Source: an uncultured Spirochaetales bacterium (GTDB lineage: Bacteria; Spirochaetota; Spirochaetia; Sphaerochaetales; Sphaerochaetaceae). From it: a stretch of DNA of 34,705 nt. The stretch is taken from the NCBI GenBank assembly GCA_949295125.1, contig CASFJV010000051.1:1-34705 (forward strand), given 5' to 3'. Of this stretch, positions 28,436 to 30,130 are shown piece by piece (position 1 is the first letter of the stretch; each line of letters opens with the position of its first letter). The notes beneath the pieces were generated by a model. That model saw only the letters and a program-made list of their open reading frames with translations, did no database searches and was not told the origin of the DNA. The translations under genes were made by a program, and so were the position numbers.

Positions 28436-28547
28436 AAAAAAGATCCCTGAGGCTTAAACACGCTCAAGGGATCTTAAAGGAGAAAAAGGTTTTGGATTGC
28501 CCCAACGAAAATTAAGGAGGAAAGGAAGTATGAAAAGGGGCAAATCC
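28436..28547 (-). ncRNA. Candidate small RNA 2 with anti-Shine-Dalgarno loop
   Basis: On the minus strand a hairpin closes GGATTTGCCCC (28547-28537) with GGGGCAATCC (28503-28494) around a 33-base loop that contains CCTTTCCTCCTTAA, complementary to ribosome-binding sites. A pyrimidine-rich linker follows. An intrinsic terminator then pairs AAGATCCCT-TGAG with CTC-AGGGATCTT (28475-28440) and ends in six T (28441-28436). I see no good promoter, so it may be made by read-through from small RNA 1 or from a promoter I missed. The alternative is a plus-strand 29-codon ORF at 28530 with AAGGAGG in front; it lacks a terminator and any recognised product. Confidence 0.45.
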
Positions 28548-28588
28548 TTATTGAAGACTTCTCACTCTCCAATATTAAACTATTCATT

Positions 28589-28677
28589 AAAAAACCCCAC
28601 TGCGGACAAAAGGAGGTAAACCGCTCTGTGGGGAACAAAAGGAGGTTCGGAATAAGGAATGCGTCTTCCTTAATTCC
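28589..28677 (-). ncRNA. Candidate small RNA 1 with two 16S-tail-like seeds
   Basis: This is a likely 89-nt transcript. Start: the promoter at 28712-28684 puts +1 at 28677, the first G of a 5' hairpin (GGAATTAAGGAA/TTCCTTATTCC, 28677-28649). Middle: a single-stranded linker with ACCUCCUUUUGU (28646-28635). End: a terminator hairpin CCCCAC/GTGGGG (28633-28595, inner GCGG/CCGC) whose loop holds a second exact ACCUCCUUUUGU (28617-28606), then six T (28594-28589). The seeds contain ACCUCCUUU, the same as the 3' tail of 16S rRNA, and would pair with strong ribosome-binding sites. No coding frame of note lies on this strand. Confidence 0.6.
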
Positions 28678-28683
28678 ACTTGT

Positions 28684-28712
28684 AATATATACACTTTAGA
28701 AAACCTTGTAAA
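28684..28712 (-). promoter_or_regulatory. Promoter of small RNA 1
   Basis: On the minus strand: -35 TTTACA (28712-28707), a 17-bp spacer, and -10 TATATT (28689-28684). The start site 28677 is a G seven bases downstream and coincides with the base of the first hairpin. A very AT-rich stretch upstream could act as an UP element. Confidence 0.65.
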
Positions 28713-28925: not shown

Positions 28926-28946
28926 GCCCCAAAAGAGGGGCATTTT
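28926..28946. terminator. Hairpin at the end of the hyd operon
   Basis: GCCCC (28926-28930) pairs with GGGGC (28937-28941) around AAAAGA. The T run (ATTTTTAG) lies on the plus-strand side, so as an intrinsic terminator it works best for plus-strand transcription. For hydF on the minus strand it is a stem without a T tail. Confidence 0.5.
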
Positions 28947-30130
28947 TAGACATCTGTATAGACTTTTCCCATTATTTCCAGGCTTCTTGAGAGAATACCG
29001 TTCATAAAAGCGATCACAGTTCCATAATTCGTGAAAGCAACATTCCTCCTTTCTGCTTCCCTCATACGGCTCAGCACTTCCTTTTCATTGAGCATGCACG
29101 CACCGCAGTGAATGATCAGGCTGTACTTTTCAAGGTTTTCAGGAAATCCCTGGCCGGAAGAGAATTCAAAACTGATATCTTTACCTGTATAGCTTCTGAT
29201 CCAGTTTGGGATCTTTACAGTCCCAATATCTTCACACTGCCTGTGATGGGTGCATCCTTCAGCAATCAGGATGGTATCCTTATCTTCAAGCTTCTTAATT
29301 TTTTCTACCCCTCTTACCGCTTCATCTAGAAATCCTTTATAACGTGCCATGAGAATTGAGAAAGATGTAAGTGGAATGCACTCTGGAACGATCTCAGAGA
29401 CTTTCCTGAATGCCTGGCTGTCCGTTATCACAAGATCGGCTTTATAGCTTAGGCGGGAGAGAGTCTTTTCAAGCTCTGTATCCTTAGTGCATACTGCTAT
29501 GGATCCTGAATCAAGAATATCCCTTATGGCCTGCTGCTGGGGAAGAATCAGCCTGCCCTTCGGTGCTGAGCTGTCTATTGGAATTACAAGAACCACTGTA
29601 GAGCCTTCAGGGATAAGGTCTGAAACAAGTTTCTTCTCATTCTTCTCCTCTCCTTTAAGCCGTGACAGGGCAACTCTGAGATCTTCAATATGCTCTTTTG
29701 TCTTTGCAGAAACATAGAAAAGCCCCTCTTTCCTTTCCTTCAGCTGATCTTCCTTATTAAAGACAACGATATATGGAATGTTTTCAGCTTTGATCTCCTT
29801 TTCTATGTCCTCTGGATAATCTCCGCTTGTGGCATCTGCTACTATCACGGCGGCATCAGCTTTCCTCAGCACCTCCCTGGCCTTCCTTATCCTGAGTCCT
29901 CCAAGTTCCCCCTCATCATCAAGTCCGGGAGTATCTATCAGGACACATGGCCCTATGGGAAGTATCTCCATTGATTTATATACAGGATCTGTCGTAGTCC
30001 CTTTCCTCTCGGAAACAACGGCAATATCCTGATTCGAAACTGCATTGAGCAAACTTGACTTTCCTGCATTCCTGTTGCCGAAGAATGCAATGTGGAAACG
30101 CTCTGAACGAGGTGTGCTGTTCAATCCCAT
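28946..30130 (-). CDS. hydF: [FeFe]-hydrogenase maturation GTPase HydF
   Basis: This is the scaffold protein on which the diiron part of the H-cluster is assembled before transfer to HydA. It has 394 aa. The N-terminal GTPase domain has G1 GNRNAGKSS (residues 18-26), a switch-type GTTTDPV, G3 DTPG (66-69) and G4 NKED. A dimerisation domain follows. The C-terminal cluster domain has CTHHRQCED and, about 50 residues on, IIHCGACML, which make the C-x-H ... H-C-x2-C ligand set of HydF. GGAGGG precedes the ATG, nine bases after hydG. Last gene of the operon. Confidence 0.96.
   Translation of the reverse strand: MGLNSTPRSERFHIAFFGNRNAGKSSLLNAVSNQDIAVVSERKGTTTDPVYKSMEILPIGPCVLIDTPGLDDEGELGGLRIRKAREVLRKADAAVIVADATSGDYPEDIEKEIKAENIPYIVVFNKEDQLKERKEGLFYVSAKTKEHIEDLRVALSRLKGEEKNEKKLVSDLIPEGSTVVLVIPIDSSAPKGRLILPQQQAIRDILDSGSIAVCTKDTELEKTLSRLSYKADLVITDSQAFRKVSEIVPECIPLTSFSILMARYKGFLDEAVRGVEKIKKLEDKDTILIAEGCTHHRQCEDIGTVKIPNWIRSYTGKDISFEFSSGQGFPENLEKYSLIIHCGACMLNEKEVLSRMREAERRNVAFTNYGTVIAFMNGILSRSLEIMGKVYTDV

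Follow-up and report, generated by a model that had tools for sequence, protein, structure and literature searches.

Redundant C-rich seeds are used by at least two described groups of small RNAs (sRNAs). In Alphaproteobacteria, NfeR1, a member of the ar14 or "cuckoo" group, carries three redundant anti-Shine-Dalgarno (anti-SD) motifs and represses translation, its tested targets including periplasmic ABC-transporter components (PMC10746234). In Listeria, CU-rich motifs in loop A, the linker and the terminator loop of LhrC cover the SD sequence of the target and repress its translation (PMC4132741). The CcsR RNAs of Rhodobacter, which are of the CcsR/cuckoo type and linked to stress, have an alternative-sigma (RpoHI/RpoHII) promoter and are cut by RNase E from the transcript of a DUF1127 gene (PMC10253847). 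For the phylum Spirochaetes, six sRNAs are listed (PMC9029176).

Here we analysed a minus-strand locus in the window, that is, the whole stretch of 34,705 nt of DNA, which belongs to a spirochaete genome (G000) of 1.96 Mb in 78 contigs. An earlier note on this DNA had proposed two tandem sRNAs exposing copies of the 16S anti-SD sequence.

A minus-strand unit with two anti-SD seeds

The promoter, the 5' hairpin at the predicted +1 and the T6 terminator that had been described for the first of the two units were all present where the earlier note had placed them. The features of this unit are as follows.

28684 to 28712, minus strand: sigma70-type promoter TTTACA-17-TATATT, 10 of 12 consensus matches (TTTACA at 28712-28707, spacer of 17 nt, TATATT at 28689-28684)
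28589 to 28677, minus strand: sRNA gene of about 89 nt (covariance models R1 and R2; fold energy of the 89-nt unit -28.7 kcal/mol, z = -3.4)
28649 to 28677, minus strand: 5' hairpin of 29 nt, starting at the predicted +1 at 28677 (fold)
28635 to 28646, minus strand: first anti-SD seed ACCUCCUUUUGU, in the unpaired linker (sequence, fold, shuffles, BLAST-found copies)
28595 to 28633, minus strand: intrinsic terminator hairpin, stems CCCCAC/GUGGGG and GCGG/CCGC (pairing and covariation)
28606 to 28617, minus strand: second anti-SD seed ACCUCCUUUUGU, in the terminator loop (sequence, fold, shuffles, BLAST-found copies)
28589 to 28594, minus strand: T6 tail of the terminator (T-run kept in the alignment)

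The doubling of the anti-SD sequence also held. The exact 12-mer ACCTCCTTTTGT occurs at 28646-28635 in the linker and at 28617-28606 in the terminator loop, with no further copy in the window and an expectation of 0.00 in 100 shuffles. The loop of the 5' hairpin contains no CU-rich seed. Each seed is identical over 9 nt to the 16S rRNA tail (ACCUCCUUU) and then continues as UGU; the match claimed in the earlier note was thus borne out against a 16S gene of the same genus (L101), whose 3' end reads GGATCACCTCCTTTCT.

The proposal of a second sRNA in tandem found no support, since only the first unit is conserved. Although 28586-28436 can fold and has a terminator at its end, its hairpin is common to one relative only (G009/L002), in which the stem is changed. 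On the plus strand, the big loop of this unit contains AAGGAGG and ATG, with a 29-aa ORF (MKRGKS...), the loop being the reverse complement of AAGGAGGAAAGGAAGTATG, which by eye resembles the beginning of a gene for ribosomal protein L31 from another family (L308). On these grounds, reading the second unit as an sRNA copy is not supported, and it should be left out of the count of the sRNA.

Conservation, structure and promoters in Spirochaetia

Blast analyses recovered the unit in 34 of the 36 genomes of the window's genus, and both ACCTCCTTTT motifs stayed exact in every one of 30 copies obtained by BLAST. When GTDB contigs were scanned with a pattern, 63 stretches were recovered, spirochaetal except for about seven unrelated or low-complexity matches and including Bullifex porci, Ca. 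Aphodenecus and Pleomorphochaeta; because most motif letters are set by the scan pattern itself, motif invariance in this set is partly there by construction. Covariance model R1 had a match in 120 of the order's 139 genomes (17 of 22 genera), and a positive genome nearly always had a single copy. The broader model R2 matched 214 of 395 sampled Spirochaetia genomes (79 of 133 genera), some of which had 2-4 matches, and gave three weak matches only outside the class.

The terminator is the best conserved structure of the element. Among 50 aligned sequences, 95.1% of the cells in its stems are paired, with 36 double changes, where shuffles gave 8.6 and slid controls no more than 12. All 53 regions folded (53/53) had a 5' hairpin, although its sequence differs between them, each sequence being folded on its own, as the alignment of this hairpin (A5) is too poor for covariation. 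Across relatives, the extended seed reads ACCUCCUUUU(GU), and in several families the loop of a small hairpin (CAUC-GACCUCCUUUU-GAUG) holds the first seed, the second being in the terminator loop. The covariance-model search over spirochaete genomes that the earlier note had called for found covarying stems with both anti-SD motifs kept. On this comparative evidence, the minus-strand unit 28677-28589 is a real sRNA gene; judged from sequence, this applies to the gene itself and to its conservation, structure, promoter and seed identity.

Upstream regions from the pattern scan had a sigma70-type promoter in 53 of 53 cases, with 8-11 of 12 consensus matches and a spacer of 17 nt in 52. Outside the order, GT(A/T)AC-N15-18-GTT was found in 37 of 57 loci (spacer 17 in 32), compared with 2.5% of random stretches from the same loci, and from its sequence this element looks like an ECF-sigma promoter. 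In the form TGTAAC-N17-GTT, a promoter-like element outside the order is conserved upstream of the sRNA among these 57 class-level loci. For Sphaerochaeta, a GAAC motif was considered as an ECF promoter and rejected, as it lies inside the predicted transcript, 3' of a sigma70-like promoter, TTGAT-N17.

Other structured elements were seen in these genomes. Terminator hairpins with a ACCUCCUU loop occur upstream of leuS (leucyl-tRNA synthetase) in several families (L276, L280, L297, L298, L299), two of them in tandem in two genomes; they may be extra copies of the sRNA or leuS leaders. A TD-1 RNA (RF03155) was found at L268 546-648, in a Treponema-like genome that also bears the sRNA.

Candidate targets

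The seed statistics cover 286 kb sampled from the window's genome, and 710 kb of contigs of that genome and its relatives. In the 286-kb sample, 23 of 228 genes (about 10%) have a seed match of at least 7 nt and six have one of at least 9 nt, the best site being a perfect 12-nt match (-20.1 kcal/mol) in an ABC-transporter ATPase gene. A conserved perfect 12-nt target was not found; extra sites were few and lay in differing genes between genomes. Matches to a 10-nt seed number 1-10 per genome, and the 10-nt site CAAAAGGAGG, located 3-8 nt before the ATG, was present in 20 of 20 genomes of the genus tested.

Genes were called solute-binding-like when they encode a signal peptide and a motif typical of solute-binding proteins. 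Such genes account for 25 of the 77 distinct genes carrying CAAAAGGAGG 3-8 nt before the ATG, a set in which orthologues are not independent. In the comparison sets, they number 9 of 576 for genes as a whole, 2 of 100 where the pairing with 16S is equally strong, and 1 of 33 where the site is (A)AAGGAGG without the fourth A. Pfam analysis of ten of the 25 identified transport proteins in every case, eight of these being binding proteins (seven SBP_bac_1/8 and one TctC) and the others a GntP permease and an amino-acid permease. Of the solute-binding genes in the random sample, most carry a different strong SD sequence. Outside transport, an EF-G-like gene (PF00009) keeps CAAAAGGAGG as its ribosome site in 12 of the 20 genus members tested (e.g., L343, L364, L373, L380, L388, L398, L405, L417), and a hibernation-factor-like gene (PF02482) has it in 3 of 20. 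Target prediction against ribosome-binding sites, suggested in the earlier note, thus gave transporter-rich 10-nt matches, while perfect 12-nt sites were rare and not conserved.

Because the genes matched by the 10-nt seed are enriched in solute-binding transporter proteins, the results point to a putative transporter-centred regulon and not to blanket repression. They provide a concrete candidate target class for the spirochaete RNA, namely solute-binding proteins and transporters. Counting against this target reading, transporter genes may prefer this ribosome site for strong translation, and a less specific effect of seeds that match the 16S tail is possible.

Proposed mode of action

The unit has an autonomous promoter and an intrinsic terminator, and its exposed SD-complementary seeds are kept while the stems vary, as in a trans-acting anti-SD sRNA. 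We consider it likely that it specifies a trans-acting regulatory sRNA, belonging to a conserved Spirochaetia family, whose redundant anti-SD seeds would repress AAAAGGAGG-type mRNAs, mainly those of transporters. We infer its expression, pairing in vivo, repressive action and targets as follows. Transcription from its own promoter would give an RNA of about 90 nt ending at the intrinsic terminator and displaying two redundant extended anti-SD seeds, ACCUCCUUUU. The terminator loop would expose one of them and the linker the other, a small hairpin loop taking the place of the linker in other families. Through either of the two, the RNA could pair with the SD region of mRNAs bearing AAAAGGAGG-type sites, and this pairing would block the 30S subunit and repress translation. 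Transporter mRNAs, those for solute-binding proteins included, are likely the main targets, and the EF-G-like gene is a further candidate. Pairing would probably be independent of Hfq: a search for Hfq (PF17209) found none in 60 relatives and was positive in 5 of 14 control genomes. Help from Hfq is unlikely since these 60 relatives gave no Hfq, although a divergent Hfq is possible, and on sequence grounds the RNA would not be placed among the Hfq-dependent sRNAs.

The RNA has the look of a core regulator because it is class-wide, occurs nearly always once per genome and is absent from Rfam. More speculatively, and with a low probability in our estimation, it could be a class-wide, single-copy, Hfq-independent core regulator for which the extended SD AAAAGGAGG would be the regulon mark. 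It would then set nutrient uptake (solute-binding proteins) against translation capacity (the EF-G-like factor and the hibernation factor), with an ECF-type stress promoter in many families.

A global damper or decoy without a specific regulon, masking many strong SD sites together or presenting a ribosome-associated protein with a mimic of the 16S tail, appears unlikely. The 9-nt identity with the 16S tail, the seed matches of at least 7 nt in 10% of genes and the presence of EF-G-like and hibernation-factor-like genes among the 10-nt matches are in keeping with it. However, the seed letters UUGU, which lie beyond the 16S match, are conserved within the genus, the 10-nt matches are few and rich in transporters, and the 16S letters upstream of the core (GGAUC) have no mimic in the RNA. 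The absence of the GAUC part from the RNA speaks against a decoy for a protein binding the 16S tail. Of the broad repressor or decoy put forward in the earlier note, repression through anti-SD seeds is still the best reading, but full breadth is not supported, given that the genes matched by the seed form a narrow group rich in transporters.

Gene neighbourhood

In about 60 loci, the sRNA gene is located downstream of a phosphofructokinase gene (pfk, PF00365), on the same strand, and this is its position in most lineages. In about 20 loci, it and the phosphoglucose isomerase gene (PF00342) face each other, argR lying behind. The window instead has hydE-hydG-hydF upstream of it (HydF at 28946-30130). 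The sRNA keeps its own promoter in this different neighbourhood (hydF instead of pfk), which favours an autonomous gene. The same-strand position downstream of pfk, and the terminator being the best conserved structure, would also fit an element serving mainly as the terminator of the upstream gene (pfk, hydF), with a loop that binds a protein or has another role. We regard this as improbable: a promoter and a 5' hairpin of the element's own are conserved, 80-500 nt past the upstream gene, this gene differs in the window, and terminators do not need two invariant motif copies, in loop and linker.

Plus-strand small genes using the two AAAAGGAGGU copies as ribosome sites, for which both reverse-complemented motifs would be good SD sequences, can hardly be an option, being ruled out by the 16-19 nt between the motifs without a frame pattern and by the covarying stems, with the promoter and T-tail also belonging to the minus strand. 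The earlier note had named codon-like plus-strand conservation in place of conserved stems as the result that would overturn its proposal; the outcome favours an RNA, and the spacing and the covarying stems support a non-coding minus-strand sRNA with redundant exposed anti-SD seeds.

Cuckoo loci have a neighbouring DUF1127 gene; for the spirochaete sRNA, clusters of neighbouring genes of at least 70 aa included no recurrent small gene adjoining it. In several members of the genus, a gene starting with MGRHKEP (integrase-like by eye), whose SD is within a hairpin, follows the sRNA terminator at a distance of about 160 nt, and two recurrent genes come after it (loci L223, L091, L047, L065, L073, L086). 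This group is possibly a mobile element using a site downstream of the sRNA.

Comparison with known sRNA families

No family for the spirochaete RNA is present in Rfam 15, and a literature search found no description of it. The earlier note knew of no described family with such a layout, but there are precedents, as ar14/NfeR1 and LhrC also use redundant C-rich seeds. We class the spirochaete RNA as a new family within an established kind, that of RNAs with redundant anti-SD or C-rich seeds.

The best sub-threshold Rfam match of the window unit is LhrC (RF00616), scoring 23.3 bits where the gathering score is 110 (E 0.4). Both RNAs have a 5' hairpin, a single-stranded linker, a terminator loop and repeated seeds. 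LhrC, however, is multicopy in Listeria, with a UCCC motif and a seed in loop A, whereas the spirochaete RNA is single copy, with an extended anti-SD and seeds in the linker and terminator loop only. Membership in LhrC was rejected on the score and seed positions, and the match is a likeness of layout.

With ar14/NfeR1, the spirochaete RNA shares a build of several hairpins in which one anti-SD motif recurs unchanged where the RNA is unpaired, stems that vary, and redundant seeds (PMC10746234). The ar14/NfeR1 motif, CCUCCUCCC, is found in three hairpins, whereas the spirochaete RNA has ACCUCCUUUU in the linker and terminator loop. The two occur in different phyla, and in the 60 relatives of the window's genome no Hfq was found. 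Membership in ar14/cuckoo was rejected, the motif being ACCUCCUUUU(GU) and not CCUCCUCCC per hairpin, and ar14 being absent from the Rfam matches of the window unit up to E 10. The alternative-sigma promoter of the CcsR RNAs recalls the ECF-like element before many spirochaete members, but CcsR RNAs are processed from a longer transcript, whereas an autonomous transcript is predicted here.

Annotated sRNAs are scarce in spirochaetes, and this class-wide family adds one. Besides the ar14/NfeR1 and LhrC RNAs, it seems to be another case in which the design with redundant anti-SD seeds arose independently, in this instance in bacteria that yielded no Hfq in our search.
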